Of a stretch of 20,969 nucleotides of DNA, positions 4,801-20,969 are shown piece after piece. The DNA lies in IMG/VR virus record IMGVR_UViG_3300025881_000101, positions 1-20,969 of that record. The stretch is one strand, 5' to 3'. The DNA is from a virus. The stretch's first letter is position 1; every line of letters begins with the position of its first letter. Below the pieces are notes generated by a model. That model ran no database searches. It was not told the origin of the DNA and was given only the letters and a program-made list of their open reading frames with translations. The position numbers were made by a program, and so were the translations under genes.

Positions 4801-7800
4801 CCACAACGGCATACGAAAGTTTAGATGGTCTCGCAGACATCTGGACTAATCAATTAGGTGCCGGTGAAATTACCGCCTCACTTGCTGCATACGAGCAGTT
4901 AAAAACTATTATTAATAATTATGTCACGACTTCTACGGAAGAAGCGCGGGTTGTTGCTTTAATTGAAAGGATTAGAGACGCAATCAATGCCGCAGATGGA
5001 TCAGCAATTCCGATTGTTGTGCCTACTTTCACTGGCGAGAGCAGTACTTTTCATGCTATCAGATCTACGTTACAAGAGCAAGTAGTATTTTATGCCAATA
5101 GCGTTTTCCCAACATACTCTTACGATCAGGCAACTTGTCGCAGAGACGTGGGATACATTCTGGATGCGTTGACCTATGATCTCAAGTACGGTGGTAACAG
5201 CGCAACCTCTATTGCGATGCGAGCATACTTCTCTATCTTTGGTAATGGTTATGCTGATCGACTTGGTCAAAGTGAACTGACTGCAACGATTGCAGCATAC
5301 GAACAGTTAAAATCTATTATTGCGGGTTATACGGCAGGAACAGATTCAGGTAACATTACTAAGATCCAAAACCTCTTAGATATTATTATTCATGCTGTTG
5401 AGCAATCTAGTATAGGAACTTTCCAATTAGGTGATTTCTTTAACGGAACTGCTATCTACCAATACAATTACCCGACAGGACTTGCAGTAGGTTACGATTC
5501 ACTAGTGTTCCCAAACCTTGTTACTATAGGGGTCTCTACGACAACACCATCAATCTATACCGCATGGACTAAGTTCGAGCAAGGAACATCTGAACGACAA
5601 ACTATTATTCGACAGTCATCTGAGACCGCGCAGAACCAAGGCACCGATACTACTATCTTTTTGAAGTCTGGTGACTACACAGTTAACAACCCAATCAAAC
5701 TTCCGCCCAAGACTTCTATCATCGGTGACGCACTAAGGGCAACTACGATTCGCCCACGCAACGTCGATAGTGATATCTTCTGGGTTGACAATGGTTGTTA
5801 TGTAAAAGAGGTTACTTTCCGAGATCATCAAAACGGTGCAGCCTGTGTGGCATTTGATCCAAGAAACGATGTTAATACTGGTCCGTTCATTACTCAATCG
5901 CCTTATGTACAGAACTGTACTTCGTTGACAACATCGGGTATCGGTATGAAGATCGACGGATCCAAAGTGTCTGGTCTACGATCAATGGTGCTTGATGCGT
6001 TCACACAGTTTAATGCAGACGGTATTGGTGTTCACTTAACCAATCGCGCATATGCTCAGTTAGTATCTTGTTTCACGATTTCTACCTCAACGTCTATTTT
6101 GGCAGAAACAGGGGCACAGTGTTCTATAACAAACTCGAACTCTTCTTTTGGTGATCGTGGTTTAGTATCAACAGGCGGTTCTCCGTCAATATACGATGGA
6201 CTTCTTCACGCAACATATAATCAGAACGATGATGTGATTCGAGTAAATGGAATTAGAAACCAAGACCCTGCAAACTATTCTTTAGAAATAGGTGCGTTTA
6301 AGAAACCAAATTACAACGATGCGATCAAATTTAGTAATGATAATTATTACTACACTGTTCTAAACGTATCGGATGAGATTACTCAAGATTGGGGAACCAG
6401 CGGAAATACCAACGAAAGTCTTCTAGTAAACCCCTCTCCTGTGGTTAACGAGCAGTTCGGTAGTGTTTCAAAAATGTCAAGAGACGATAATTATTTGTTT
6501 GTCGGGGCAAAAGGAACAGGCGCAGCAACCGGAGAAGTCGAAGTCTTTACACGGTCAGGAACATCTTGGACTACTCAGGCAACAGTTAAACCTACCGGAA
6601 CGACCGAAAACCCTTTGCATAATAATGCCGGAGACGGTCGTAGGTTTGGTTCTTCGGTTGCATGCAACCTTGATGGAAGTCTTCTGGCGGTTGGAGCACC
6701 TTTCGATCAGAACGGTGGTGGGTTGGGAGAAAATCAAGGTAGCGTTTATGTTTATAAACGAACCGGTTCTTCTTGGGCATTCGATATAATTTTGCAACGA
6801 CCTTTTGTTGCCTCAACCAATGTTTTACTTGCCCTAGAAACAAAACACTTATCTATGTCTGAAGACGGTAACTGGCTTGCAGTAGCAAGTAGCGTTACTT
6901 CGCCAAGCGATACTCGTGGTCAAGTTTTTGTTTACCAGAAAGGAACAGAAATATTAGATGGTTCCGGTGGCACTAAAGGTATAGAAGCATCGCTTACTTC
7001 CTCATCAGGGGATTATTGGACTTTGATGCAAATAATTACAAGTCCAGTCATTACCAATGTATCTGCGCCATCAGTTTCTCTTAATACAACAGACGGTTCG
7101 GACATGATTGTCGCTTGGGCAGGACAAGCAAATACTGCATACTATTATGCAAGAAACATCTTTAATTCGTATGGTCGAGTTCAGACAATTGTACCGGCAA
7201 TGAATCTTAACGAAAACAATCAGCGATCACCTGTGTTGGAACTTTCTTCCGCCGCTGATTACTTTGTTTATGGTGACGGAAATGCCCCGTTCGGTTATAT
7301 AATTAATCCGTTTACCGATTCTGATGCCGGTTCATTAAATGCGGCAAAACAATCTATTGCTTCGCTTACGACTTCTTCAAGCGCGCCTCATGTTACTGCA
7401 ACTGATCCTGATGTCGATTTTACCAAGTATTTTAGTGCTGGTATTACGGTGAAGAGTCCGGCATGGAATGCGGCAGGTAATAAAACGATTGCTTCATTGA
7501 CGGCAAACACCATAACCTTTACAAATGGAACTGCGGTTCCAAATGCCACTACAACCAATGCAGAGATTTCTACTAATGCGGCGGGAGCAGTCGAACTTTT
7601 CTTCTTTAATGAAGGTACTTGGGGAACGCAAGAAGTAATTACTCATGGTGATAAACAAGGGGTTTCTACTTCTAATGCTGACAATGGTCCAACGCCTAAT
7701 GATGCTCAGAGATTAGGCGATGAGGTTGTTATTAGTGCTGATGGTTTGCTTGCAATTGCTGGAGAAAAGAACGGGGATCGGAACGCAGCATGGGTTGTTG

Positions 7801-8405
7801 AACGCGCAGCTTCTAACTGGGCAACGGTCACTAAACTTCAACCATCTACCGTTCAAGCAGTTTCAGAAGGGGATGCTTCAAAAGATAATTTCTCTGCCAG
7901 TATTGCACTTGGATCTAAGGGAGATTATATTGCAGTAGGTGCTCCTAACAGAACTAAAGATATTGGTGCGACTCCAGCAGAAAACGGGGGAACGGTATTT
8001 AATTACTATTCTATCCTAAATGAAACCGGATCATACAACATCACTGTTGCTCCTGGACTAAATAAGCCATTAGTACAAGGTCAAACCGTTGATTTCCATC
8101 AAAGATCTTTGATTAGTGCCTCTTCACATACTTTTGAGTTTGTGGGATCTGGTACTAATATGTTTGCGGCAGTGCCACAAAACGGCGGTATTCCTAAGAA
8201 AGATCAGGAAGTAATATTCGATTCAGCAGGCGCGGCACAACCCAATTTTGGTTTGGTTTACTTTACCGCGACGGACGAACTGGGTGACTTTAGGATTGGT
8301 GGTGATTTAACCATCAACCGCGAGTCCGGAACAATCACAGGAACAACGTTCGACAGATCTTTGTTCGCAGTATTAACACCTTATATTCTAGCATTAGAGG
8401 GATAA
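1845..8405 (+). CDS. Giant tail fibre / adhesin with Cys repeats, beta-helix and FG-GAP propeller (2186 aa)
   Basis: A 2186-residue protein. Residues 1-45 (PTLNEIDFGEIAINTHDGKA) match the short attachment segment that starts many phage fibres. Residues about 98-1180 hold eight repeats of about 140 residues, each with one Cys in a C-x-R-D motif. Residues about 1230-1500 include TIFLKSGDYTVNNPIKLPPK, TSIIGDALRATTIRP and TSGIGMKIDG, typical of a right-handed beta-helix (pectin-lyase-like fold). Residues about 1535-2055 contain FG-GAP-type blades, for example FGSSVACNLDGSLLAVGAP at 1601 and GDYIAVGAPN near 2022, interrupted by a segment at about 1832-1915. Residues about 2060-2186 (SSHTFEFVGSGTN, DELGDFRIGGDLTIN, FDRSLFAVLTPYILALEG) resemble the C-terminal module shared by fibres of marine T4-like phages. 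It probably acts as an elongated host-binding structure. No catalytic residues can be assigned. It is followed 1 nt later by the 130-aa gene. Confidence 0.9.
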   Translation: MASRKKILFPRSDIPGRAPTLNEIDFGEIAINTHDGKAYIKKDKNGEVSINSIGAEDVDNVYYVSKSGVPGNDGKSLMNAFSSLDSAVAVVYAKENFKFDETTCERDLNLIMDGVRYDMALGTNYGAVTAGQAYKRGNAIKVTAEQLYQTRRSINEERLGMVSVPAVKTDATSKLRVASGFDEIIEILVGGTASALDFPDPPVQAQTDANAAANAIQTNKEVIQDAVLDYLNNPANDFLTGSYDATTCSRDVGLIVNAVARDLLLGTDYNTITAGWAYNRSSSAYVLSDQNEATIAGINFARDYIIALAGVTSDTDIENLFKNVTDVINATQTVYPTINYVTTAGATYQTADRIAATTNLQANRATLISDTTVYINANYPGLGYDQAKCERDVGYIIDGLSHDVKYGGNTATRTNALAYFSGTVSQLGFGEGTATVAAYNDLKTRINAVVTTAPEQTVLGGLVDEITGVITAGNTTGLSAEVNIVTTGLTTTEYDAIVAGIVGAQAATIDYVDLNWSTKLGGYNAGKCARDVGLILDAVARDLLLGSDFWTIAAGNSYLRANTAYVLSDQKQATIDAVNFAKSKVKALVGALDATVDTLFERVIDVLDGTVTIVQTYATYPANGTYASSQFRDIDHGTIRSQRNGLITRTTNFITANYPGLAYDQSKCERDTGFVIDAINIDLLYGGNTASRNAALSYFAGTNSQLGSGETAPTVAAYNFLAGDIKNYTSENARVDELMGLVTGVITAGNTDSIPAEVEVDTAGLTTTDFDAIVANRLIIQNDVIDFVNDQNIVGSFDQHKCERDTGLIIDAIALDLQNNTDYNSITAGLAYQRGNAQKVQSDQLQYTIDSINYLRDQINASGINATSQTFVTARIKQITELLEESTAYGKEDGTSIDFTGTGSESADKRNAANALIVNRRTIQGQLITWIQNNFDSLEYDQDKCQRDVGYIVDAVTHDILFDGSFATDTNARSYWVGKDLNIENTTTAYESLDGLADIWTNQLGAGEITASLAAYEQLKTIINNYVTTSTEEARVVALIERIRDAINAADGSAIPIVVPTFTGESSTFHAIRSTLQEQVVFYANSVFPTYSYDQATCRRDVGYILDALTYDLKYGGNSATSIAMRAYFSIFGNGYADRLGQSELTATIAAYEQLKSIIAGYTAGTDSGNITKIQNLLDIIIHAVEQSSIGTFQLGDFFNGTAIYQYNYPTGLAVGYDSLVFPNLVTIGVSTTTPSIYTAWTKFEQGTSERQTIIRQSSETAQNQGTDTTIFLKSGDYTVNNPIKLPPKTSIIGDALRATTIRPRNVDSDIFWVDNGCYVKEVTFRDHQNGAACVAFDPRNDVNTGPFITQSPYVQNCTSLTTSGIGMKIDGSKVSGLRSMVLDAFTQFNADGIGVHLTNRAYAQLVSCFTISTSTSILAETGAQCSITNSNSSFGDRGLVSTGGSPSIYDGLLHATYNQNDDVIRVNGIRNQDPANYSLEIGAFKKPNYNDAIKFSNDNYYYTVLNVSDEITQDWGTSGNTNESLLVNPSPVVNEQFGSVSKMSRDDNYLFVGAKGTGAATGEVEVFTRSGTSWTTQATVKPTGTTENPLHNNAGDGRRFGSSVACNLDGSLLAVGAPFDQNGGGLGENQGSVYVYKRTGSSWAFDIILQRPFVASTNVLLALETKHLSMSEDGNWLAVASSVTSPSDTRGQVFVYQKGTEILDGSGGTKGIEASLTSSSGDYWTLMQIITSPVITNVSAPSVSLNTTDGSDMIVAWAGQANTAYYYARNIFNSYGRVQTIVPAMNLNENNQRSPVLELSSAADYFVYGDGNAPFGYIINPFTDSDAGSLNAAKQSIASLTTSSSAPHVTATDPDVDFTKYFSAGITVKSPAWNAAGNKTIASLTANTITFTNGTAVPNATTTNAEISTNAAGAVELFFFNEGTWGTQEVITHGDKQGVSTSNADNGPTPNDAQRLGDEVVISADGLLAIAGEKNGDRNAAWVVERAASNWATVTKLQPSTVQAVSEGDASKDNFSASIALGSKGDYIAVGAPNRTKDIGATPAENGGTVFNYYSILNETGSYNITVAPGLNKPLVQGQTVDFHQRSLISASSHTFEFVGSGTNMFAAVPQNGGIPKKDQEVIFDSAGAAQPNFGLVYFTATDELGDFRIGGDLTINRESGTITGTTFDRSLFAVLTPYILALEG
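2139..5330 (+). repeat. Eight-copy protein repeat, about 140 codons, with invariant C-x-R-D
   Basis: The motif Cys occurs at residues 104, 248, 389, 528, 668, 802, 945 and 1098 of the 2186-aa fibre, so the spacing is 144, 141, 139, 140, 134, 143 and 153 residues. Each copy reads approximately (Y/F)D-x3-C-x-RD-x2-(F/Y/L)I-x-(D/N)A. Two types can be told apart. Type A (104, 248, 528, 802) continues with (T/S)(D/N)(Y/F)-x2-(I/V)-x-AG-x-(A/S)Y. Type B (389, 668, 1098, and 945 as a diverged form) continues with YGGN-(T/S)A and a (Y)(F/W) pair about 13 residues later. I saw no other cysteine in the first 1200 residues. Boundaries are approximate. Confidence 0.85.
8396..8401 (+). promoter_or_regulatory. 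Ribosome binding site of the 130-aa structural gene
   Basis: AGAGGG lies 5 nt before the ATG at 8407, inside the last codons of the giant fibre gene. It supports the chosen start, which follows the fibre stop after only one base. Confidence 0.6.
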
Positions 8406-8406
8406 G

Positions 8407-8799
8407 ATGGCAACTCCATTAAACGTATTTAAGACAACAACAAAAACATTATCAGATTCAGATGAAAACTTTGGTGTGTTAGGCACCGAACCTTTCGTAT
8501 ACAGAGCACCAGCGGGAGTAACTAGTATTGTTCTGATGGCGCAAGTTGCTAACATTGATCCTACAGATAGAACTGTAGGAGTTACCTTTATTCATAAAGA
8601 CGTTGGTACTCAGATCGAAACTAAATTGGTGAACAATTTTGCAGTACAATCCAATGATGCTTCTGGAGTTTTGACCGGCAAATTGATTGTTCAGGAAAAC
8701 AACGAAATACTCGCATACACACATCGCTTCAACGGAACCGACGATACTAATAATAGTTTGGTTCTAACTTTAAGTTATCTGGAATCGTTAAATGGCTAA
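8407..8799 (+). CDS. Small conserved virion structural protein (130 aa)
   Basis: A 130-residue protein without catalytic motifs, signal peptide or membrane segment. It has a short N-terminal arm (ATPLNVFKTTTKTL), then APAGVTSIVLMAQVANIDP, VGVTFIHKDVG, KLVNNFAVQSNDASGVLTGK, LIVQENNEILAYTH and a final LTLSYLESLNG. This strand series, with 'A..VANI', 'F..(V/I).(S/A)NDA...LTGKL(I/V)(V/L)(Q/E)' and 'L(V/T)LSYLE(S/T)LN' landmarks, is one I associate with small structural proteins of marine T4-like phages. It is probably a single beta-sandwich. It lies between two giant fibre genes and overlaps the second by 8 nt, so the two are probably translated together. It could be a fibre-joining or capping subunit, but this is inference from position only. 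Confidence 0.8.
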   Translation: MATPLNVFKTTTKTLSDSDENFGVLGTEPFVYRAPAGVTSIVLMAQVANIDPTDRTVGVTFIHKDVGTQIETKLVNNFAVQSNDASGVLTGKLIVQENNEILAYTHRFNGTDDTNNSLVLTLSYLESLNG

Positions 8800-11700
8800 G
8801 AGACTCATATCGTTATCAGGTAAAGTAAAACGTTTATCGGCAGAAGAGTTAGACGCTGATCGTTATCAATACCTATCGCTTGAGCAAGCGGAACCGAACC
8901 CTGGTAATCCAGCATCCGATGGATCGTTGTTTATTTCGGATGTTGATGGGACTCGTGGATTTACAACAAAACCTTCTCTTACTGGAGTAACGTTTAGAAA
9001 TAACACGCTGGGTGAAACTTCTTCCAATAGTGGTGAAATTTTTGTAGCAACATATCACAGTAATCCTGGTGATGCATTATCAGTACAAGACGATTCGGTT
9101 GGTTTCCTAGAATTAGGAACGTTATCTTTAGTAGATGCTACAGATTTAGGGTTGCAAGAAATAACGCAGGTTGGTAACACAACCAACCAAGGTATAGAAG
9201 TAACAGGTGTTTCGAATGACGGTCACGGCAATCCATTAACTCACGGCGTTACTATAACTTCGCCCAATTCTTTATCTGCTTCTGGGAAAGTCGATCTCAC
9301 TGGACCATTGACATCAACCGATACCCGACTTAAACTTAATACAGCAAATCTTATATCATCCAATATTCTGACAACGGATATCACTACAGATAGTGTGGGT
9401 TACAGAGAAGCATTATTTGCGTTTGTCGCGCCGACTCTTGATCAAGTTACAGAACAAAGTATTGCTTCTGGCGTAGTACCAATTTCTACTCCTGCTACTG
9501 GAGCAATCACAGAAGACGGTATTCGAGCAAAGTTTTTTGGTTTTGGAATAGCGCCTCCTGGAAGATCAAGTGTTGACGCAAGAACCGCACTAGTTTATAC
9601 TGGTATCGGAGATTCTGTTGGGCAACGCACTTTAACAGATTTAGCAGTACAGAATACCACGACAGACACCATTACAGTCGATAAAATACAAGTTTCAGAT
9701 CCCAGTATATTTACATTACCAGCATCTGGTACAATTCCATTAGTGGTTTATGAAGAATCTACAGATGAATATGAAATAGTACAAATTGATGTAGAAAACC
9801 TTGACGCCAATTTCGAAACTTTAAAATCTGTAACTGCAAGAAAAGCGCCAACATTAGATTCTGGTGAAACTGACCAACTAACTACATTAAGTAATGGTCT
9901 TCGTTTAAGAGGAACTGGTGTTGATCAGGCGCTGTATCCTAATAACACTGAGCGTTGGGTACTTGTCGCTGACATAGCGGATGTTGGTCCTCAAGACAGC
10001 GCGTATGTTAACATACGACAAACAGATCCAATAGCATTTAATCAGTCTATCGCGACTCTTGATTTTGTTTTAGGCAACGATCCTGTTGCTAGTTCTAAAG
10101 AACTAACTGTTAGAAGCGTTATTGCGGATAGTGCTGCTCTAAGCAAGTTCGATGTTAATGGCAATACAACATTAGACGCAACCACTATTGATGGTTTATT
10201 AACTGTTAATGCTGCTACTTCTCTCGACTCAACTACTATTGATGCTGGCGTTGCTAATAATGGATTCGTTATCACCAATCTAGCGGTAGGAACTGAGTCT
10301 GATATTCTTGCGGTCAACAGTAGCGGCGTTGTATCGACTGTAGATTTAGACCAAGAACTTTCTGATGCAGTTAATAGTGTAAGTTTGCACGATGTAGTAG
10401 TTGTTAATACTTCTTCAGGAAGAACAACTTCAGGCGAAATCGGCGCGGCAGATTTTAGAATATACGACGGATCTGGATTCGTTGATGATGATGACATAAC
10501 TACAAATTTCAATGTGGTAATTGATACTGACAGAGATTTCCATGTTCAAGATAAAATTTTCTTTAACGACCTTGATGGATCCGGTGTTGATCGACTTCCC
10601 ACAGATACGGATAGAAACTTCATCAGGTTCTCTGATCCGACATTACTAGGATATCCTGGAGTATATGATTTTGTTTCAGATGCGCTGGACGACCCCTCTA
10701 CTGTTGGAAACGCACTTCTTCGAGCGGGTGGTTTAATATTAACCGACAGTGCGACGATAGGAAGTAATTTAACCATTACAGGAAACCTTACTGTAAACGG
10801 CACGGAAACTGTTGTTAATACAACAAATTTGTCAGTAACAGATAAGAAAATTGTAATTGCCGACAACGCTGGTAACATTGCTCAAACAGCAGATGCTGGA
10901 ATTTATTTGGGCGCAGATGACGGAACTGAATATGCTTCTTTTACCTTTGACGGTGCAACATCTTGGACTACACCCGAAAGTTTTACGATACAAGATACTG
11001 GTATTTTAATTGCTGAAGGTCTTACTTTACTCGATTCAACGGCAATAGACGGAGCACTTAATCTTACAAACCTTATCGGCGACGGTGATGCTGTAACTGT
11101 ACTTACCATTGATGCTGTGAATGAGGTGGGTTCTAGGGCAATACAATCAACAGCATTTACTGGCGAAACATTAACTACAGTAACCGATCCTGGAAGACCT
11201 GCGGGTTATGATACAACTCCAACTCCACTGTATTTTAATGGTGGTATATCTCTCGCAGCAAACGTAACGGACACACAAGCAACATATAAACTGTTGAATC
11301 TCGGATCAGGTGCTTCTGGCGATAGTGTTGAATTCATTGAAGTCGATGCTAATATTCTTGATGGTAGTGCTTTAGGTTTAGATCAAGTATTAACAAACAG
11401 CAATACCTCAGGTAGAAACATTCTACTTACTGGCACCGGCGGTGTTTCAGCTGATTCTGGTGATTTTTCTGGTAAGTTAAACGTCGACGGTGATATTACT
11501 ACTGCTGCAACAACATTCAACTTACTTAATACAACTGCTACAACAGTAAACGTTTTTGGCGATGCTACAGGAATCGGTATTGGTGCTGTTACTGGTACCA
11601 CGACGATCAGGCATAACCTTGACGTTGATTTAGATTTAAATGTAGACGGCGGTGATATTACTACTGCCGCAACAACATTCAACTTGCTCAATACAAATGC

Positions 11701-14029
11701 CACGACGGTAAATGCATTCGGCGCTGCTACATCAATTGATATCGGTGCCGCTACTGGGACAACATCAATTAATAATAACCTTGATATTGATTTGGGGTTA
11801 AATGTCGCCGGTATTACTACGCTTGATTCAACTACGATAGATGCTGGCGTAGGCAACGGATTAGTAATATCCAATTTGCAATCAGGCAACGGTAGTTTTG
11901 CTGTTGTTGATGGGTCCGGTAATGTTGGTCTTAAGTCAGTAACAGAAGCATTTGCAGACGAAAACTTACAAACAGTTACCCAGCGTGGACAAACATCTGT
12001 CGCACAAACAACAAACGTTTCAGTAACCACTGAAAATGTTAAAGTCGGTGGCCAGTTTTTCTTAGGGTTGACCGATGGAAATGTTAATGATCTTCGCTTA
12101 ACGGGAACACAAAAAGCACTCCATATAGATGCTAATGATAGCGTTGGATTCAGAGACCTTGGCAACTTAGCATACTTAGATTCAGATGACGAAACTTTTG
12201 CTTCTTTAACTAGCAAACCCGAAGGTTTCGGCGGGTTGACGCAACTACAGAATAATACGGTTGTTCCTAGGATTGAACTTCAAGGCGGATTGAACCTTAA
12301 AAACCTTAGCACAAGTCCTGACGATAATCTTGTTGCTTTGTTTTTACATCAAGATTCGGTTGTTAAAGTAACTGTAGACGAAACCGTATTCAGAAAACCT
12401 TCTCTTCAAGAAGTAACTGAATTTGGTGGCGATTCTACAAACATAAAAACTAAATTCGGCGGTAGTTTAAACCTTCCCGCACCTGGAACAGAATTAATTT
12501 CAGGATCATCGATTACTTCTGCTTTAGCGGGCGATGCTAATTTTTATCAGATGCTGATAATAGATACCGCCACCAGAGACGTTAGTCGCGGCAACATAGC
12601 AACGATTGTTCAAACAGTTTCAACGGAAACATTAGAAACAGTTACATCTAGAGGCGCTTTGCTAAATGACGCTGCAGGAAAAGGAGCAAGAGACTCTGCT
12701 ACTGTACAGGTTGATTTTGGTGCGAAAGTGTTTTATAGCGGTGTTGATAATGTAGAATCAACATCATCTATTGTATTAGTGTTGGATGGTGATGATGGCA
12801 TCGCTAAACGGGATATGTCTACGTTATTTGACGGAGTTACGTTACATGAAGTCACTACTGCTGGTCCTTTAACTAGCAATGGAATCGGGATCGGTTCTTT
12901 AAGTGTTTACACTTCTACAGGATTCGTTGATCCTGGGGTTCCGGGAGAGTTTACAGAAGTAATCGATGCTGATCGTAATGCGTTTTTTGTTGACCTCGAT
13001 GTTACTGGTATCACCACACTTGACTCAACTGCAATAGATGCTGGTGTTAGTGGGAATGGATTGTCCATACCGAACCTTGGAGAAGTCACTACTAACACTG
13101 ATATACTGACTATCAATGGCGATGTTGTAAGCAAGACTGCTTTCAGCGACATATATACGGTGCCACCTACTCCTACTCTGCAATCAGTAACAGATGCTGG
13201 TAATATTACTGATAACTTCATACGAATTAGATCGACTACTTCTGGCGGAAATGTTTATTTAGAAGTGCTCGACTCGGGTACAAACCCAGACTTAGGATAT
13301 CATTTGGTTGCAGGGGCAACAAGTTTCCAGCAATTCGAAACAAATGAAGCAGGAAGTTCAATACTCAACGCAAGTACTGTTATTGAAGCAGAAGATTCTG
13401 ATAAAACTACTATGGCAATTATCAGACACGGAGACACTGTAGGTGGTCCTTCTCTGATTCTTGCGAAAAACAGAGGCACTAATAAATCGAATAAGAGTGC
13501 GGTCTCAGACAATGATAACCTTGGTAGGATTATTTTTGGTGGCGCATCGAATACTACGTCAACCGAAGAAGCAGACCCTTACACGCCATCGTTTGAAATA
13601 TCAGCAGATGTTTCGGCACCTGTGGCATACGATGACCTAGCATCCACAATGAGATGGTTTAGTCATGATGGTGGCACTAAAACTCAAGTGATGTCGTTAG
13701 ACAACAATGGTGAACTTTCAATTGCTCAGAGCGCGGTCATTGGATCAAGTATTTTTATAGGCAATTCACAAGCAACCAATGTTCCTGCTGCTTTTTTTGG
13801 TACAACCAACGACCCAAATCAAGGGTATGTTGCTGTTACTCATAATCCTGCTGGAGGAGGCACTTCATCGATGAGTCTTGCTGTTTCGAACACTGGTTCT
13901 GGGATCGAAAGAGTCGAAATCTCTCCAACTAAAATGCAATTGAAATCTAGTGTTCAACTACAAGATGCCGCAGGAACGAATCTAGTTATTTACGATTCTG
14001 CTGGTGTGGTTCTTTGGGGGAACGTATAA
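8792..14029 (+). CDS. Long tail fibre protein with LxxVT and LDSTTID repeats (1745 aa)
   Basis: A 1745-residue protein. The N-terminus (DADRYQYLSLEQAEPNPGNP, SDGSLFISDVDGTRGFTT) looks like the baseplate-proximal end of fibres in marine T4-like phages. The shaft has eleven LxxVT-type repeats, five LDSTTID-type motifs, a module with GNLTVNGTETVVNTTNLSVT and KKIVIADNAG (about 655-730, shared with the 408-aa fibre), and a 54-residue tandem duplication near residues 900-1007. The C-terminal about 240 residues contain NDNLGRIIFGGAS, TPSFEISADVSAP, ASTMRWFSHDGG and MSLDNNGELSI, the 'G.I.F.G...RM....T.G' domain that often precedes the fibre tip. No intramolecular chaperone (S74 endosialidase type) is visible. 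It starts within the end of the previous gene (8-nt overlap). The probable role is a trimeric fibre for host contact. It is too diverged for a T4 gene name. Confidence 0.9.
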   Translation: MAKRLISLSGKVKRLSAEELDADRYQYLSLEQAEPNPGNPASDGSLFISDVDGTRGFTTKPSLTGVTFRNNTLGETSSNSGEIFVATYHSNPGDALSVQDDSVGFLELGTLSLVDATDLGLQEITQVGNTTNQGIEVTGVSNDGHGNPLTHGVTITSPNSLSASGKVDLTGPLTSTDTRLKLNTANLISSNILTTDITTDSVGYREALFAFVAPTLDQVTEQSIASGVVPISTPATGAITEDGIRAKFFGFGIAPPGRSSVDARTALVYTGIGDSVGQRTLTDLAVQNTTTDTITVDKIQVSDPSIFTLPASGTIPLVVYEESTDEYEIVQIDVENLDANFETLKSVTARKAPTLDSGETDQLTTLSNGLRLRGTGVDQALYPNNTERWVLVADIADVGPQDSAYVNIRQTDPIAFNQSIATLDFVLGNDPVASSKELTVRSVIADSAALSKFDVNGNTTLDATTIDGLLTVNAATSLDSTTIDAGVANNGFVITNLAVGTESDILAVNSSGVVSTVDLDQELSDAVNSVSLHDVVVVNTSSGRTTSGEIGAADFRIYDGSGFVDDDDITTNFNVVIDTDRDFHVQDKIFFNDLDGSGVDRLPTDTDRNFIRFSDPTLLGYPGVYDFVSDALDDPSTVGNALLRAGGLILTDSATIGSNLTITGNLTVNGTETVVNTTNLSVTDKKIVIADNAGNIAQTADAGIYLGADDGTEYASFTFDGATSWTTPESFTIQDTGILIAEGLTLLDSTAIDGALNLTNLIGDGDAVTVLTIDAVNEVGSRAIQSTAFTGETLTTVTDPGRPAGYDTTPTPLYFNGGISLAANVTDTQATYKLLNLGSGASGDSVEFIEVDANILDGSALGLDQVLTNSNTSGRNILLTGTGGVSADSGDFSGKLNVDGDITTAATTFNLLNTTATTVNVFGDATGIGIGAVTGTTTIRHNLDVDLDLNVDGGDITTAATTFNLLNTNATTVNAFGAATSIDIGAATGTTSINNNLDIDLGLNVAGITTLDSTTIDAGVGNGLVISNLQSGNGSFAVVDGSGNVGLKSVTEAFADENLQTVTQRGQTSVAQTTNVSVTTENVKVGGQFFLGLTDGNVNDLRLTGTQKALHIDANDSVGFRDLGNLAYLDSDDETFASLTSKPEGFGGLTQLQNNTVVPRIELQGGLNLKNLSTSPDDNLVALFLHQDSVVKVTVDETVFRKPSLQEVTEFGGDSTNIKTKFGGSLNLPAPGTELISGSSITSALAGDANFYQMLIIDTATRDVSRGNIATIVQTVSTETLETVTSRGALLNDAAGKGARDSATVQVDFGAKVFYSGVDNVESTSSIVLVLDGDDGIAKRDMSTLFDGVTLHEVTTAGPLTSNGIGIGSLSVYTSTGFVDPGVPGEFTEVIDADRNAFFVDLDVTGITTLDSTAIDAGVSGNGLSIPNLGEVTTNTDILTINGDVVSKTAFSDIYTVPPTPTLQSVTDAGNITDNFIRIRSTTSGGNVYLEVLDSGTNPDLGYHLVAGATSFQQFETNEAGSSILNASTVIEAEDSDKTTMAIIRHGDTVGGPSLILAKNRGTNKSNKSAVSDNDNLGRIIFGGASNTTSTEEADPYTPSFEISADVSAPVAYDDLASTMRWFSHDGGTKTQVMSLDNNGELSIAQSAVIGSSIFIGNSQATNVPAAFFGTTNDPNQGYVAVTHNPAGGGTSSMSLAVSNTGSGIERVEISPTKMQLKSSVQLQDAAGTNLVIYDSAGVVLWGNV
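9152..13240 (+). repeat. Eleven-copy LxxVT repeat array in the 1745-aa fibre
   Basis: The repeat has the form L-x-x-(V/I)-(T/L/V)-x-x-G/N followed by a short strand such as TTNQGIEVTG or TSNGIGIGSL. The first Leu of each copy is at residues 121, 216, 344, 532, 794, 863, 1059, 1205, 1281, 1351 and 1463. The clearest copies are LQEITQVGNTTNQGIEVTG, LQTVTQRGQTSVAQTTNVSV, LQEVTEFGGDSTNIKTKFGG, LHEVTTAGPLTSNGIGIGSL and LQSVTDAGNITDNFIRI. The copies at 344, 532 and 863 are weaker. Spacing is irregular (69 to 262 residues), so other modules separate the copies. Confidence 0.7.
11489..11812 (+). repeat. 162-bp tandem duplication in the 1745-aa fibre gene
   Basis: Copy 1 is at 11489-11650 and copy 2 at 11651-11812, adjacent and in frame (54 codons). 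Both encode GDITTAATTFNLLNT followed by ATTVN-x-FG-x-AT and IG-x-x-TGTT, ending in a DLxLNV strand. The first 40 or so bases differ mainly at synonymous positions, so the duplication is not brand new or is under protein-level selection. Confidence 0.85.
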
Positions 14030-14254: not shown

Positions 14255-15013
14255 ATGGCTTCTCCAAATTCTAGACAGACATTAATCAACTATTGCCTTC
14301 GAAGGTTAGGCGAACCTGTAGTTGAAATTAATGTCGACGAAGATCAGATTGAAGATAAGGTTGACGATGCTATTCAAATGTATCGTGAGTTTCATTCCGA
14401 TGCAACATACCGCACATATTTAAAACATCAAATTACATCCGATGATGTGACCAATGGGTACATACCGATATCATCAGATATTCTATACGTGTCTCATTTG
14501 TTCCCCATAAACAAAACCTTTGGGGCAAGCGGCATGTTTAACATCAAATATCAAATGATGCTAAACAGTATGAGCGATTTTATGAATTTCTCTGGCGGTA
14601 TGTCGTACTATTATCAAATGTCTCAGTACCTAGACTTTGTGGATATGATTTTATCGGGCACTCCCCAAACCACTTTTTCTAGAAGGCAAGATCGTCTTTA
14701 TATTTGGGGCGAATGGGCGTCGGGGATTAACAACATAGAAGTTGGTGATTACTTATTCGCTGAAGTCTATCAGGTTATAGATCCTAATTCACACACAAGC
14801 GTTTATAATGATATGTTTCTTAAAAACTATACTACCTCTTTGATAAAACAACAATGGGGTTTGAACATGTCGAAATTCGAAGGGATGCAACTTCCCGGAG
14901 GAGTCACTGTTAACGGAAGGCAAATTTATGATGATGCTACTCAAGAATTACAAACACTTGAAGAAAAATTAAGACTTGAGCAAGAGTTACCACCCGACTT
15001 TTTTGTAGGTTAA
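14255..15013 (+). CDS. 13: Neck protein gp13 (head completion / tail attachment)
   Basis: A 252-residue homologue of T4 gp13, which with gp14 forms the neck that closes the filled head and accepts the tail. The N-terminus RQTLINYCLRRLGEPVVEIN followed by VDEDQIEDKVDDAIQMYREF matches the T4 arrangement 'L...ILRRLGAP.I.VE...DQI.D.I..AL..Y.E.H'. The C-terminus has MQLPGGVTVNGRQIYDDAT and ends PPDFFVG, like T4 MLPGGVTIDGQRL and its final PPFGILVG. At 252 residues it is shorter than the 309 of T4; the missing length lies in the middle. The middle shows YYYQMSQYLDFVDMILSGTP, also aligned with T4 'Y.TQL..YM.MMQDML.P.P'. It is followed after 1 nt by gp14, as in T4. Identification is from remembered T4 sequence and gene order. 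Confidence 0.95.
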   Translation: MASPNSRQTLINYCLRRLGEPVVEINVDEDQIEDKVDDAIQMYREFHSDATYRTYLKHQITSDDVTNGYIPISSDILYVSHLFPINKTFGASGMFNIKYQMMLNSMSDFMNFSGGMSYYYQMSQYLDFVDMILSGTPQTTFSRRQDRLYIWGEWASGINNIEVGDYLFAEVYQVIDPNSHTSVYNDMFLKNYTTSLIKQQWGLNMSKFEGMQLPGGVTVNGRQIYDDATQELQTLEEKLRLEQELPPDFFVG

Positions 15014-15014
15014 T

Positions 15015-15941
15015 ATGACTACTAATAAATATTTTTCACAAGGTGCTCGATCTGAGCAACTCTTGTATGAAGATTTAATAATCGAATCTTTAAAAATGTA
15101 TGGGCAAGACGTTTATTATATGCCCAGGGAATTAATAAACATTGATGACATTTTTAAAGACGAATCAACCTCTAGGTTCGACAATGCATATAAGATTGAA
15201 ATGTATATCGAGAACGTTGAAGGTTTCGATGGTGAAGGTGATCTGTTTGCTAAATTCGGCGTAGAAATAAGAGACGCTGCGACTTTTATTGTTGCTAGAA
15301 AAAGATTCCTAAGTCAGATCGGTCAATATGAAAACGATCCAGACGACCCCAAGAAACAATACTTTAGACCACACGAAGGAGACTTAATTTTCTTACCTCT
15401 TTCCGGTTCTATTTTTGAGATTCAAAAAGTGTTTGACGAAAACCCCTTTTATCAATTGAGGAACCTTCCTGTATTTAGACTCTCGTGTGAACTCTTTGAG
15501 TATAGTGGTGAAGATTTCGACACTGATATTGGTGCTATAGATAATGTAGAGATATTCGATTACCAATATAAATTGACTTTTAATAATGTTGAAAATACTT
15601 TGGGCAGTTTCAATGAACAGGGTTCATTTCAGGTTGGTGAGCAAGTTTCTCAACTTGCTTCTAGCGGATGGACATTAACGGCAGATGTTACTGATTATAA
15701 TGCAGCAGATAGCGATTCAAGGATATTAAGTGTGGCGCATTTAACTTCTACTGACGGACTGTTTCACTCTTTCAACACAGTGGATACGGTTATCGGATCT
15801 ATAACAGGTGCCGCCGGAGTTCCTTTGTCAATTACTGACGCAGTCGATGGTGCTAATAGTTCTGCACAGAACGATGTTTTTGAAACTGAATCTGACAGTC
15901 TGTTGGACTTTTCAGAATCTAATCCGTTCGGAGATCCATAA
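15015..15941 (+). CDS. 14: Neck protein gp14
   Basis: A 308-residue homologue of T4 gp14 (256 residues), the partner of gp13 in the head-tail neck. EQLLYEDLIIESLKMYGQDV and YYMPRELINIDDIF align with T4 '[32 protein letters not shown]'. FKDESTSRFDNAYKIEMYI and EGDLIFLPLSGSIFEIQKV continue the match, with NPFYQL following. After about residue 175 the chain is longer than T4 and ends DSLLDFSESNPFGDP, a tail style I associate with gp14 of marine T4-like phages. The region at about 205-275 (GSFQVGEQVSQLASSGWTLT and following) is Gly/Ser/Thr-rich and accounts for much of the extra length. The start follows the gp13 stop by 1 nt; the ribosome site is weak (TAGG at 15006-15009). The stop overlaps the gp15 start in TAATG. 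Confidence 0.95.
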   Translation: MTTNKYFSQGARSEQLLYEDLIIESLKMYGQDVYYMPRELINIDDIFKDESTSRFDNAYKIEMYIENVEGFDGEGDLFAKFGVEIRDAATFIVARKRFLSQIGQYENDPDDPKKQYFRPHEGDLIFLPLSGSIFEIQKVFDENPFYQLRNLPVFRLSCELFEYSGEDFDTDIGAIDNVEIFDYQYKLTFNNVENTLGSFNEQGSFQVGEQVSQLASSGWTLTADVTDYNAADSDSRILSVAHLTSTDGLFHSFNTVDTVIGSITGAAGVPLSITDAVDGANSSAQNDVFETESDSLLDFSESNPFGDP

Positions 15942-17191
15942 TGTTAGGCGAATGGTTTTATAACGAAAGAATAAGAAAATCAGTTGCTGTTTTTGGTTCT
16001 TTATTTAATAACATATTTGTTATCCGAAACGACAGCGCTGGTAACGTTATTAGTCAAACCAAAGTTCCTTTATCGTACGCGCCACAAAGAGATTTTCTTG
16101 CCAGAATGGTTGCGACTGAGTCCGGAGAAAATCAAGAGCGACAAATAGCAATTAAATTGCCAAGAATGTCGTTTGAAATACTTGCGATGAATTATGACCC
16201 GACGCGGCAGTTACCAAAATTGAATAAAAGAACTGTTCCTAATATCACAGGAGCAGAAAACGCTAAACTATTATATACTCCAGTTCCTTTCAACATAGCA
16301 TTTCAGCTTAACGTATATGCCAGAAGTCAAGATGACGCATTACAAATTGTTGAACAAATATTACCGTTTTTTACGCCGCAATATACCGTCTCAGTAAAAC
16401 CTCTTGATGGGTTTGATCTTGTCGAAGACACTCCAATAAAATTAGACGGCATGACAATGCAAGATGATTATGAAGGAGCGGTAGAGAATAGAAGAACAAT
16501 TATATATACTTTAGATTTTGAAATGAAAATTAACTTGTATAGGAAAACTAATCCTTCTTCTTCTATGATAACGTCAGCACAGAGCAGTTTGTTTGATATG
16601 AACGGGGATTTATTAAGTTTCATACAATGCGATGCAAACGTCTCCTCAGGGACCACTGGGACGGGCACAGAGGACATAGGAACAGTCACTAATACTTTAG
16701 TACTGAAAAATACGCTGAATCCAATCGTGTCATACAGCGTCACAACTCAACCATCTTATGGATCTGCTACAGTAGATGCGTCAGGAAAATGGGTTTATAC
16801 GCCGAATTCTGATTTTTTCGGGAGCGATCCTTTTGTTATTGGCGTTGACGTTGGACAGAATGTTATTGAATCAGTTACTATTACACCGACGATTATTTCA
16901 GCAGATGGTGATGCAGTAGATGATGTGTTCAACTGGGTCAATGATGGAACGTCTTTAGTTATGGATGTTTCTGCTAACGACACCTTTGAGACCACTGGAA
17001 ATATTACACACGCTGTGGAAACGCAGCCGATCGCGGGTATTGTTACTATCATAGATTCTCTTGCTGGAACATTTCGATGGACACCTCCGGACGCGTCGTT
17101 CACTGGATCCGTCACGTGGGAATATCGTGCCATACCAACCGAAGCGGCACAATCATCGGAGGTTGCTGAAGTCACTATAAACGTGACCTAA
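15941..17191 (+). CDS. 15: Tail completion / sheath terminator protein gp15 with C-terminal Ig-like extension
   Basis: Residues 1 to about 204 are gp15. LGEWFYNERIRKSVAVFGSL and FNNIFVIRN align with T4 'FGYFYNSSFRRYATLMGDLFSNIQIKR', VPLSYAPQRDFLARM with 'VPITYASKEHFMMKL', and DALQIVEQILPFFTPQ with 'MFQIVEQILPYFQPH'. In T4, gp15 (272 residues) forms the hexameric ring that caps tail tube and sheath and binds the neck. This copy has 416 residues. After a Thr/Gly linker (SSGTTGTGTEDIGTV) come two domains: about 250-320 (VTTQPSYGSATVDASGKWVY, then TPNSDFFGSDPF) and about 321-416 (AVDDVFNWVNDGTSLVMDV, SANDTF). Both look like cadherin/Big_9-type beta-sandwiches. CGGAG at 15929-15933 is 7 nt before ATG, and the start overlaps the gp14 stop. 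The gp15 call is sure; the domain type of the extension is inferred. Confidence 0.95.
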   Translation: MLGEWFYNERIRKSVAVFGSLFNNIFVIRNDSAGNVISQTKVPLSYAPQRDFLARMVATESGENQERQIAIKLPRMSFEILAMNYDPTRQLPKLNKRTVPNITGAENAKLLYTPVPFNIAFQLNVYARSQDDALQIVEQILPFFTPQYTVSVKPLDGFDLVEDTPIKLDGMTMQDDYEGAVENRRTIIYTLDFEMKINLYRKTNPSSSMITSAQSSLFDMNGDLLSFIQCDANVSSGTTGTGTEDIGTVTNTLVLKNTLNPIVSYSVTTQPSYGSATVDASGKWVYTPNSDFFGSDPFVIGVDVGQNVIESVTITPTIISADGDAVDDVFNWVNDGTSLVMDVSANDTFETTGNITHAVETQPIAGIVTIIDSLAGTFRWTPPDASFTGSVTWEYRAIPTEAAQSSEVAEVTINVT

Positions 17192-17199: not shown

Positions 17200-20100
17200 A
17201 TGCATAACGGATTTAAAGACAGATATAGAAGAAAAATAATCTTGGGTAGACCTCAGGTAAAGAATGTTTTACCCGATCACTTTAAATCTGCATACCCAAA
17301 ATTTATTTCATTGCTTGAAAAATACTATGATTTTCTTGATGAAAACGATAGTACCGAATTGCTTCAGCACCTTTTTCAGATCCGAGATGTCACGGAAACC
17401 GATATAACTCTGTTATCTTATATTGAAGACGAGTTATTATTAGGCGAACAATATTTTGAAGGGTTTGTCGACAAAAGGGCAGCAGCAAATTTCTCTAGTA
17501 TTTTATTCAGATCAAAGGGTTCACGGTATTCGATTGAATGGTTTTTCCGTTCTTTTTTTGGTATCGATTCCGAAGTTTTTTATCCAAAAACTGACATCTT
17601 TAAACTTAATGAAGATGATTCTAGGATTGGTGCGGACTATGAAAAATATTTAACAGACAACAAACTTTATCAAACTTTCTCATTGTTAGTGAGAGCATCA
17701 ATTCCTATTTCACAATGGAAAGATATTTTTAAGTTGTTTGTTCACCCCGCAGGTATGTACCTTGGCGGGGAAGTGTTAGTTGAAAGTTTAGCAAGGATCA
17801 CCAGAGAAGTATCAATAGAACCGACTCAATATCTTACTCCGGTCTGGTCTTTTACATCGGGATCTACTGATGAAGGTTCTACTCATACTCTTTTGATATC
17901 ATCTAACCCCTCACCCCCTAGTGATACGCATCTGTTTTATAGAATCACTTTGTCGGGTTTATCAAATGAGGCTGAGATAATAGATACAACACCTAATTTA
18001 GATGTGGTCAATTACATACCTGTCGAAATCATTGGTGGTTCTGCTCAACTACAGTGGGCGCTTAGTGATGACAATGATTACGCCGAAGGCGATGAAATAT
18101 TCACTGTAACATTTTATGATCATGAAGACCCTGTTTGGGCGAATGAACTAGGAAGTTCTACAATTACAATCGGAAACATATTACCTGTATACACTGTTAC
18201 CGTTTCTAATTCATCAATAACTGAAGGCGTTCAAACTATAACAGGAACTATGACCACTTCTCATCCAAACGGTTTTTCTCCTGCGTTTGCAGGCGAGACC
18301 GTAACATTGTCGTTTACAGGAGACCTTGCATCAGATATACGAGTTTCTAATTTAATATGGGACGATGGAGGACTTTCTACTGTTGTTCTAAACACTGTTT
18401 CTAAATCATTTACATTCGATGTTGTTGGTAGTGATATTTATCAAGGAGCAACAACGGGGGCGGTTAGAGCAACAAGTGCATATGCTGTAGGCGATTCACC
18501 AACCATAACAATTACAGATTTAGCGGCGACTGGAGCAGTCAATGCTTCTAGCGCGACACAAAGTGAAGGAGGAGGTGCAATTACTTTTGATCCTACATTC
18601 ACTAATGCTGTTCCTGGATCAAATGTATATTATTGGTTAAGTAATCTGACTGATATGACCTCTGGAGATTTTTCAGGATCCCCAGCAATAGGATCTGGAA
18701 ATAGAGTTGTTATAGGTACAGTTGATTCTAATGGTACTGGTATGACAGGTGGGTATTCCTCACCGAGTATTGAGTTAACCGATGACATTGTTCCCGAATC
18801 GGGAGAATCATACAGAATCAATATTAATGTCGACAATTCTGGAACCGCTTTAGCAAATTCAACTATCACTGTCAACGACAACGATACTGTACCCGATTTT
18901 GATACTGTTACATTGTTCTCTGATGCAGGAAGAACTTTGGCTGCCACCTCCTTTAACGAGGGCGACACTATTTACGGTAGACTGGTTACTTCAGGAACAC
19001 CTCAAGGCGAGACCATCACCTACTCTTTCATCAATGGTGATACTCGAACAACTGACACGGATACCAGTGTTCATGCTACATCAGGAAACCAAGACTTTAC
19101 CCTCGTACTTGGTTCGGATATTCCCACAATTAACGGATCTCCTGCTGGATTAATAGTTCGGTGCTCAAGTTCAGGAACATATGCTAACAATTTAGATACT
19201 GGCACAATAACCATTGTTGATGAAACCATATCTTATACGGCATCTGCAGTCTCTTCATCGGTCACTGAAGGTAGTTTATTGCAAGTAGAATACACTGCAA
19301 CACTTGTCGGTGGCGCAAGTTATGAAAATCTTAACGTGGCGGTTGCCGACAACGGAGACTCAAGGGTAACTGCTGGTAATTATGCAATCACTTCCACTCA
19401 GTTCGGTCTTGCAGATCCTGGTGCCACTGGCGTTAGTACTGTAACATTGTCTATTGGTTCAACGGCAGATCCAGCAATAAACGGAGACGGGACTATTGAA
19501 TTTGTGGGAACAGGAGCAGTCTACGGGCAGGGTTCTGTCCCTGCTCAAGTGGATATCACAGTTACTGATGCTACACCCTCTTATGGTGCATTTAGTGTTT
19601 CACCCACATCCATAGATGAAGATGGAACAGTGGCAGAGTTCGAATTACTTGCCTCCAATGTTGGAGTCGGCGTAACTGTTGATTGGATATCAAATGCTAC
19701 CGGTGGTGTTGAATATGTTGGACCGGATCTACAAATTTCATACACCAGCGCTGTTGCAGGATTTGCTGACTTGACTCAAAATTTCGGAACAATCACTCGG
19801 GCAGGGGATGGTAACTTTAGATTCTGGGTTCGGGCAATTGCCGATCTTGCAGTAGACAATGAGAATCCTGAAGACTTTATAGTAACTATTGCGGCTAACG
19901 ATTCGAATGCTACCGCAACAGGTGGACCGAGTGCCACACTTGAAGTTAACGACACAAGTATTCCTGCAAATGCTCCGACTGTTACGCCCAATACTACGTC
20001 ACCCACAGAAGGTGATACCGTTACCTTTACTTTCGGTGAAGCAGCAGGATCTGCCGCGCAAACATATTACTTCAATATCACTCATGACACAACGAGTAAT

Positions 20101-20969
20101 GCTGACTTTACTGCTGACCCTCCTGGTAATGGTGCGACTGCAAGAACTACTGTTACGTGGGACGGATCAGTTTTCTCACCCACCTCGGTGGCGGTAACAC
20201 TTGCGGGAGCAGGCGGTGCAGACGGTGTGGATGATAACGAAATATTTACTGGTAAATTGTTTGATGCTGTGACTGGCGGAACTCAAGTAGCAACTACTGC
20301 AAACATTACAGTGACAGATGATCCAGCAGCAGGAGCAACAGTTCAAGCAACTATGGACATTCATCCAATGTTTCCCGGTAATGATTATACTTTCACTACA
20401 CGAAACTCTGTTTTCGATAGCGGTAATCCAACTGCGGCAAGAGCCGAAGCGATGTTCATGGTCGAAGAAACCGGAGGATCAATTATTGTTAAATTGGCAA
20501 TTGCTGGTCAACCGGCGGGACTAGTGCCATTGCGAGGTGGTTATGAAGTGAATACATCAACAACAGGTGTTTCTCTTGATTATGTTTCTACTTCCGGAGA
20601 TCCGGCTGCTGATCCAGAATCCGCAGAAATTTTCAGAATAGATTCACTGCCTGTAACTGGTTGGAGTGTTCGATATGACGCAGATAACATCAACACTTTT
20701 GGCGCTGGTACGGATCTTGCTGGTGCCAATGCGTTCGATACTGCTGATGCTTCTGGCACTGGATCGACTAATATTTCTTACGTGTCAAACCACACCGCTG
20801 TAGCATCTTTCTATGATCAAATGACTACTTCTGCACAACTTATTACGGGTGGAGTAAGAGGTAAAAAAGCACATTATTTTGGAGTCACCGCGCTGGCACT
20901 TGCTAATCAAGCGAGAGAGTCCGGAGCGATTGGTAGTTATAGATTAATATTTAGTAGATCAGGACAAAC
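17200..20969 (+). CDS. Giant virion structural protein with tandem Calx-beta-like domains (3' end beyond window)
   Basis: Open from ATG at 17200 to the right edge: 1256 codons and no stop. Residues 1 to about 200 form a mostly helical head: RPQVKNVLPDHFKSAYPKFI, SLLEKYYDFLDEND, ILFRSKGSRYSIEWFFRSFF, DDSRIGADYEKYL, LFVHPAGMYLGGEVLVESLA. This combination recurs at the start of proteins annotated as virion structural in marine T4-like phages; the role is unknown. From about 205 to 1040 run roughly seven beta-sandwich domains of 110-125 residues, several with a Calx-beta start ('S(I/V).EG....(V/I)') and end ('ITV.D'): SSITEGVQTITG, TSFNEGDTIYG, SSVTEGSLLQVEYTA, TSIDEDGTVAEFEL, TSPTEGDTVTFTF. After residue about 1040 a different unrecognised region begins (TMDIHPMFPGNDYTFTTRNS). 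M1 is the only ATG start ahead of the head domain. A tail-surface role is inferred. Confidence 0.85.
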   Translation, partial: MHNGFKDRYRRKIILGRPQVKNVLPDHFKSAYPKFISLLEKYYDFLDENDSTELLQHLFQIRDVTETDITLLSYIEDELLLGEQYFEGFVDKRAAANFSSILFRSKGSRYSIEWFFRSFFGIDSEVFYPKTDIFKLNEDDSRIGADYEKYLTDNKLYQTFSLLVRASIPISQWKDIFKLFVHPAGMYLGGEVLVESLARITREVSIEPTQYLTPVWSFTSGSTDEGSTHTLLISSNPSPPSDTHLFYRITLSGLSNEAEIIDTTPNLDVVNYIPVEIIGGSAQLQWALSDDNDYAEGDEIFTVTFYDHEDPVWANELGSSTITIGNILPVYTVTVSNSSITEGVQTITGTMTTSHPNGFSPAFAGETVTLSFTGDLASDIRVSNLIWDDGGLSTVVLNTVSKSFTFDVVGSDIYQGATTGAVRATSAYAVGDSPTITITDLAATGAVNASSATQSEGGGAITFDPTFTNAVPGSNVYYWLSNLTDMTSGDFSGSPAIGSGNRVVIGTVDSNGTGMTGGYSSPSIELTDDIVPESGESYRININVDNSGTALANSTITVNDNDTVPDFDTVTLFSDAGRTLAATSFNEGDTIYGRLVTSGTPQGETITYSFINGDTRTTDTDTSVHATSGNQDFTLVLGSDIPTINGSPAGLIVRCSSSGTYANNLDTGTITIVDETISYTASAVSSSVTEGSLLQVEYTATLVGGASYENLNVAVADNGDSRVTAGNYAITSTQFGLADPGATGVSTVTLSIGSTADPAINGDGTIEFVGTGAVYGQGSVPAQVDITVTDATPSYGAFSVSPTSIDEDGTVAEFELLASNVGVGVTVDWISNATGGVEYVGPDLQISYTSAVAGFADLTQNFGTITRAGDGNFRFWVRAIADLAVDNENPEDFIVTIAANDSNATATGGPSATLEVNDTSIPANAPTVTPNTTSPTEGDTVTFTFGEAAGSAAQTYYFNITHDTTSNADFTADPPGNGATARTTVTWDGSVFSPTSVAVTLAGAGGADGVDDNEIFTGKLFDAVTGGTQVATTANITVTDDPAAGATVQATMDIHPMFPGNDYTFTTRNSVFDSGNPTAARAEAMFMVEETGGSIIVKLAIAGQPAGLVPLRGGYEVNTSTTGVSLDYVSTSGDPAADPESAEIFRIDSLPVTGWSVRYDADNINTFGAGTDLAGANAFDTADASGTGSTNISYVSNHTAVASFYDQMTTSAQLITGGVRGKKAHYFGVTALALANQARESGAIGSYRLIFSRSGQ
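17812..20325 (+). repeat. Tandem array of about seven Calx-beta-like domains
   Basis: Approximate domain limits in the window: 17812-18180, 18190-18510, 18531-18885, 18893-19224, 19228-19572, 19576-19956 and 19972-20325. Most end in a (T/S)xTI(T)(V/I)xD strand. The second, fourth, fifth, sixth and seventh begin with an EG or ED turn (ITEG, FNEG, VTEG, IDED, PTEG). The first and third are less typical. Protein identity between copies is low, so this is an old domain array rather than a recent DNA expansion. Confidence 0.65.

Follow-up and report, generated by a model that had tools for sequence, protein, structure and literature searches.

The closest described counterparts of the protein considered here are subunits of contractile-tail baseplates. 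T4 gp7 binds gp9 and gp10, which hold the fibres (PMC3004832). Phage XM1 has a gp7 orthologue, gp17, a minimal gp7-type core of 242 amino acids (aa) whose loop and C-terminus hold tail spikes (PMC10457771), and in phage Vp4 the baseplate wedge subunit Gp119 carries carbohydrate-binding modules fused to it, and is reported to bind the host surface (PMC11406892). It has been stated that pelagimyophages lack T4 gp7, with VrlC as its apparent substitute (PMC7029224). The DNA analysed here, referred to as the window, is a 20,969-base virus fragment from IMG/VR (record IMGVR_UViG_3300025881_000101), and the subject is a giant open reading frame (ORF) at 17200-20967 on the plus strand, which has an ATG start and extends over 1256 aa with no stop before the contig end. 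The giant is very probably a gp7-equivalent wedge subunit whose gene has moved once and has been fused to an arm that would act as an adhesion device.

The head of the giant (residues 1-200; 17200..17799, plus strand) is, by sequence, a gp7-type baseplate-wedge core. It matches PF23786 (Phage baseplate wedge subunit; E 2.3e-13, 50.7 bits against a cut-off of 27) and PHROGs 3465, 17744 and 4406, and PF23786 was matched by all 32 full or near-full relatives scanned. The domain is predicted to be mostly helical and ends in the motif FVHPAGMYL (residues 180-188; 17737..17763, plus strand), in which HPAG is invariant among 46 aligned heads and whose counterparts, aligned with hhalign, are FVHPVGF in T4 gp7 and IHPAGFY in I899_gp055 of phage HTVC008M. 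T4 gp7 was among the PDB sequences matched by the head profile (E 2e-4), in two collinear pieces (residues 649-759 and 851-904) that flank Gp7 domain V, and a six-frame search of the whole T4 genome with the head profile returned only gene 7, likewise in two pieces (E 3.9e-4 and 3.7e-3). The hhalign alignment concurred with that of the profile, ending at FVHPVG in T4 and FVHPAG in the head, and phrog_17744, phrog_26741 and phrog_2885 are matched by both proteins. The seven best PDB matches found by Foldseek with a low-confidence model of the head belonged without exception to baseplates of contractile tails, those of phi812, a KP1 variant, phiCD508, T4 (5iv5) and diffocin. A phmmer search of PDB with the whole window protein gave chance matches only, and an NCBIfam scan of the giant gave no match. 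An earlier note on the window, made from its letters, had proposed a virion-type protein with a helical docking head, and both points are borne out.

The head can be compared with three described or sequenced counterparts. The two collinear pieces of T4 gp7 (PDB 5hx2, 5iv5) that align with the head lie in its core segment, 643-905, and FVHP(V/A)G is common to both proteins; in T4 gp7 the extra mass is found at the N-terminus (residues 1-642) and in the inserted domain V, whereas the core in the window is contiguous and N-terminal, the extra mass is a C-terminal arm and the gene has been relocated. HTVC008M I899_gp055 and other marine T4-like proteins of the gp7 slot (phrog_3465) likewise have a PF23786 core encoded by a single gene right after gp6, but in I899_gp055 the core is split by an insert of about 520 aa and the gene is in its original place. 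CDS0192 of C48C1 has a contiguous head, 36% identical to that of the window over 188 aa; unlike the giant, this protein and the heads of the G020 and G021 type have 316-374 aa and no long arm, lie between gp6 and gp8, and are followed by a separate gp9/10-like gene.

The position of the head gene differs between the outgroups and the clade of the window. T4 gene 7 lies between genes 6 and 8, and the PF23786 gene of HTVC008M and C48C1 follows gp6 directly and precedes gp8. A head gene also lies between gp6 and gp8 in G020 (131 kb), G021 (108 kb) and a 142-kb contig binned in a metagenome-assembled genome; in these three records the head gene, of 324-376 aa, is followed by a gp9/10-like gene and then gp8. 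In G020, G021 and C48C1, gp15 is followed directly by gp16. In the window's clade gp6 adjoins gp8, and the gene that the outgroups have between them is missing there; the giant was assigned to the gp7 type despite this, because the sequence features of the type are present. Of 80 gp6 loci, 50 lacked a head between gp6 and gp8, which lay -16 to 51 bp apart; 26 had the head directly after gp6, and four were not assigned to either arrangement. The long records of the clade (G001, G002, G004, G015, G016, G017, G018 and G030) have gp6 beside gp8 and exactly one head gene, about 14-45 kb downstream. Wherever a long record was found to hold a head gene, it held just one, the 152.7-kb G015 included, and in relatives of the window gp25-gp6-gp8 is present alongside the sole head gene. 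With one exception, the head gene of the clade stands in front of gp16. The protein of more than 1250 residues that the earlier note placed between gp15 and gp16 is borne out by the ORF of at least 1256 aa, and the same place is widespread among relatives. A third location in the clade is that of G036 (L078:9995-11743), where an arm-fused head gene comes right after vrlC among the baseplate genes. The gp6 lineage of L170, L172, L173 and L175 has a 224-aa ORF between gp8 and vrlC (L175:13244-13918, in G024), and likewise lacks the head after gp6; no head was found in these short records.

In the head tree all relocated rows formed one clade (support 96/93; L081 was placed by its own gene context, head-gp9/10-gp8, and hence counts as in place), and in the gp6 tree the rows without a head formed one clade (Shimodaira-Hasegawa-like approximate likelihood ratio test support 97; the tree was made by a quick method and carries a long-branch warning for two outgroups). 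As each tree gives one clade, a single relocation accounts for both. Two of the early-branching relocated records, L076 and L077, encode the head on its own (240 aa) and an arm-like part as a separate ORF (1386 aa in L076; 1206 aa in L077, where it is cut by the contig end), which suggests that the move preceded the fusion. L076 keeps a gp9/10-type gene (PF07880, at the cut-off) between gp14 and gp15, as if the head and gp9/10-type genes had both moved. In L076 (534-1553) and L077 (3137-4156) an ORF with a sulfotransferase-like start (ISGLPRSGSTLLSSIL) lies between gp14 and gp15, followed by the gp9/10-type gene (PF07880).

Nearly all members carry a modular C-terminal arm joined to the head. 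In the window the arm (residues ~205-1042; 17812..20325, plus strand) consists of about seven tandem immunoglobulin (Ig)/Calx-beta-like beta-sandwiches with recurrent EG/ED-type strand starts at residues 225, 342, 457, 587, 690, 806 and 938 (spacing 103-132), in agreement with the long arm of about seven sandwiches described in the earlier note. From 20326 to 20967 (plus strand) the arm passes into a different, C-terminal part, which the contig end cuts before a stop; the full lengths in the close relatives L015, L010 and L005 are 1270, 1392 and 881 aa. The first sandwich (residues 211-330) was modelled with a predicted local distance difference test score (pLDDT) of mostly 81-90 and resembles the Calx-beta structure 3h6a (template modelling score 0.58, the highest target score listed) and many Ig folds. 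As a family assignment, the Calx-beta identity given in the earlier note finds no support in Pfam: PF03160 did not match the window protein at E<=1, it was called in one of 32 relatives (E 0.003), and no Pfam family exceeded its cut-off in the window protein's arm. One acidic motif of the DDNDYAEGDEIF type, at residue 290 of the window protein, is a candidate calcium site by its letters.

The arm is a mosaic and recombines. L003 is 99.8% identical to the window across 11,041 bases, up to a breakpoint at 19967..19968 (plus strand), from which its distal arm is unrelated (blastn), while in L004 the head is 98-99% identical and the identity drops to about 40% from residue 400 onwards. The reverse holds for L010 and L015, the heads of which are 65-67% identical to that of the window (67% at nucleotide level) and residues 600-900 94-98% identical (blastn and identity per 100 residues), the exchanged block at 18889..19967 (plus strand) being 96-97% identical in nucleotides. 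L015 is colinear with the window across 19967 at 94%, and L027 encodes a distal block of the window arm inside a separate downstream ORF. Exchange of this kind is typical of modules that contact the host.

The homology with T4 and XM1 predicts that the core binds a pair of gp6 subunits in each of the six wedges (PMC10457771, PMC6300606, PMC3004832). In the proposed scheme, the gp7-equivalent gene left its place between gp6 and gp8 once, in the ancestor of the clade, for the region of gp15 and gp16, and was joined to the long C-terminal arm; residues 1-200 would assemble with the gp6 dimer as in T4 (gp6)2-gp7, so that each virion would carry six copies at the end of the tail that faces the cell, and the arm of Ig/Calx-beta-like sandwiches would radiate from the baseplate as a recombining adhesion or receptor-binding device, doing the work of T4 gp9/gp10-type connectors and fibres. 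Of this, the sequences show the homology, the single copy, the move of the gene, the fusion and the mosaic arm, while the site in the virion, the partnership with gp6 and the adhesive role are deduced. From the precedents of T4 gp7, XM1 gp17 and Vp4 Gp119 we infer an arm that extends outwards from the baseplate and may contact the host or its envelope. The XM1 spikes are separate proteins, unlike the covalent arm of the window, and Vp4 Gp119 belongs to another wedge subunit (BW3, of the A511 gp105 type) in another phage family and host, so that the link to Vp4 is one of analogy. A further step, which is possible but tentative, is that the core wedge subunit itself became the receptor-binding arm: gp7 with an exchangeable adhesin may have taken over from the gp9/gp10-linked fibres, binding at the tip may be transmitted covalently to the (gp6)2-gp7 contraction trigger, and the host range of this uncultured marine clade may shift by swaps of arm modules within a gene of the baseplate core. 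The adaptor PF07880 (gp9/10 N-terminal) was not found in the seven relocated records searched and is present in five of six in-place records. A strict replacement of gp9/10 by the arm was considered and is weakened by L076, which keeps its gp9/10-type gene, and by Melnitz, which has both an expanded head protein and the PF07880 adaptor.

Several observations weigh against this interpretation. A more diverse head profile made without C48C1 reached T4 gp7 only at E 0.27, and scores are modest; the T4 link consequently rests on profile A2, the PHROG families in common and synteny. The AlphaFold2 model of the head had a mean pLDDT of 58 and was low in two runs, and the E-values of its Foldseek matches were 0.009-0.43; given the low confidence of the model, the fold comparison counts as supporting evidence only. 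Neither gp6 nor gp8 is present in the window, so the gene move there is read from relatives, and among the relatives that share the arm it is seen in one 64-kb record, G030, of the nearest arm-sharing group. The arm matches no known receptor-binding family.

This last point also favours a reading in which the wedge identity is right and the arm is a structural spacer, a baseplate-rim element or a link to separate fibres that makes no host contact, as the extra domains of T4 gp7 hold gp9, gp10 and the fibres (PMC3004832). Such an arm is rather unlikely, though it deserves some weight: its modules are swapped between otherwise near-identical phages, as is typical of host-contact proteins, and since PF07880 was not found in the seven relocated records searched, there is no obvious connector for the arm to hold. 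A position at the neck, where the earlier note saw a collar decoration or a second set of fibres beside gp15, is very improbable. The gene does adjoin gp13-gp14-gp15, and gp15 itself bears a beta-sandwich extension, but the profile search with residues 1-200 that the note proposed led to a known baseplate protein, the finding it had named as speaking against its own proposal, and the gene of this wedge core lies between gp6 and gp8 in the outgroups. Moreover, in the rearranged records G016 and G017 the head gene stays before gp16 at a distance of at least 18 kb from gp13-15, and in G036 it stands in the baseplate block after vrlC; in all three it is the sole gp7 candidate. No homology to neck proteins or whiskers was found, the sole link being the label 'head closure Hc2' of phrog_3465, which looks like a misannotation; phrog_3465 covers the gene in the gp6-gp8 slot of HTVC008M. 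Because the gene moved, its position misled as to the site in the virion, and nothing indicates that the protein's site moved along with it. It is similarly hard to credit that the giant is a paralogue, with the true gp7 encoded elsewhere and a copy of the head reused to anchor a new appendage: a duplicated copy might on general grounds fuse to a new arm, but each long record has one head gene, G015 included, and the gp6-gp8 gap is empty in 50 loci. A chimeric assembly, in which head and arm or gp15 and head were wrongly joined, is barely worth entertaining as an account of the giant, though single contigs may be chimeric: the breakpoint at 19967 lies at a repeat border, where assemblers can switch, but dozens of contigs drawn from many metagenomes share the order gp15, head, gp16, and L015 crosses the L003 breakpoint colinearly.

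With the giant very probably a gp7-type wedge subunit, the family is a known one, and what is new is the relocated gene, the N-terminal core and the long exchangeable C-terminal arm. No description of a gp7 relocation or of Calx-beta in phage baseplates was found in the open-access literature searched, which is not proof of novelty. As the HTVC008M gene between gp6 and gp8 encodes a gp7-type core, the statement that gp7 is absent from pelagimyophages (PMC7029224) appears to need correction. The same is suggested for the 'head closure Hc2' label of phrog_3465. The HTVC008M protein I899_gp055 (L102:33435-36485) is labelled head closure Hc2, yet it is a gp7-slot protein with a PF23786 core; the label apparently arose because residues 484-752 of the insert match phrog_460 (gp14), the likely source. 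The assignment would give a baseplate location to a giant orphan protein found in widespread marine T4-like phages, and indicates that a core wedge gene can part from its operon and become joined to an arm that recombines. It cautions against reading virion location from gene neighbourhood, and offers for uncultured phages a testable candidate for how host range changes.

The giant ORF directly follows gp13-gp14-gp15 in the right part of the window, all on the plus strand: the head-tail adaptor gp13 at 14255..15013 (phrog_211, E 8e-40), the neck protein gp14 at 15015..15941 (PF11649, E 1.2e-31; also phrog_460), and the tail sheath stabiliser gp15 at 15941..17191 (PF16724, E 2.3e-63), with a cadherin/Big_9-like C-terminal extension (Big_9, E 2.2e-11). 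Gp15 is a neighbour and no part of the wedge protein. The giant ORF is truly coding, with 13-20 differences from relatives at codon position 2 and 62-65 at position 3, and the head is encoded in 335 IMG/VR stretches. Complete homologues in relatives are in most cases about 880-1500 aa long and are followed by gp16-gp17-gp18-gp19-gp20, one ORF of 190-430 aa sometimes separating them from gp16. Promoter and terminator scans gave no excess over the shuffle expectation. The extension of gp15 (window 16601-17191) is also exchanged: from 16796 on it is 88-89% identical in nucleotides to L010 and L015, compared with about 68% for the gp15 core, and the length of gp15 across relatives ranges from 234 to 1269 aa. 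Farther upstream, a 1745-aa protein at window 8792-14029 has no Pfam, PHROG or NCBIfam match and parts of it are mosaically common to relatives, and a 2186-aa protein at window 1845-8405 has several tail-fibre PHROG matches (phrog_5342, 17885 and 4527) and repeated CxRDxG..D modules in its translation.

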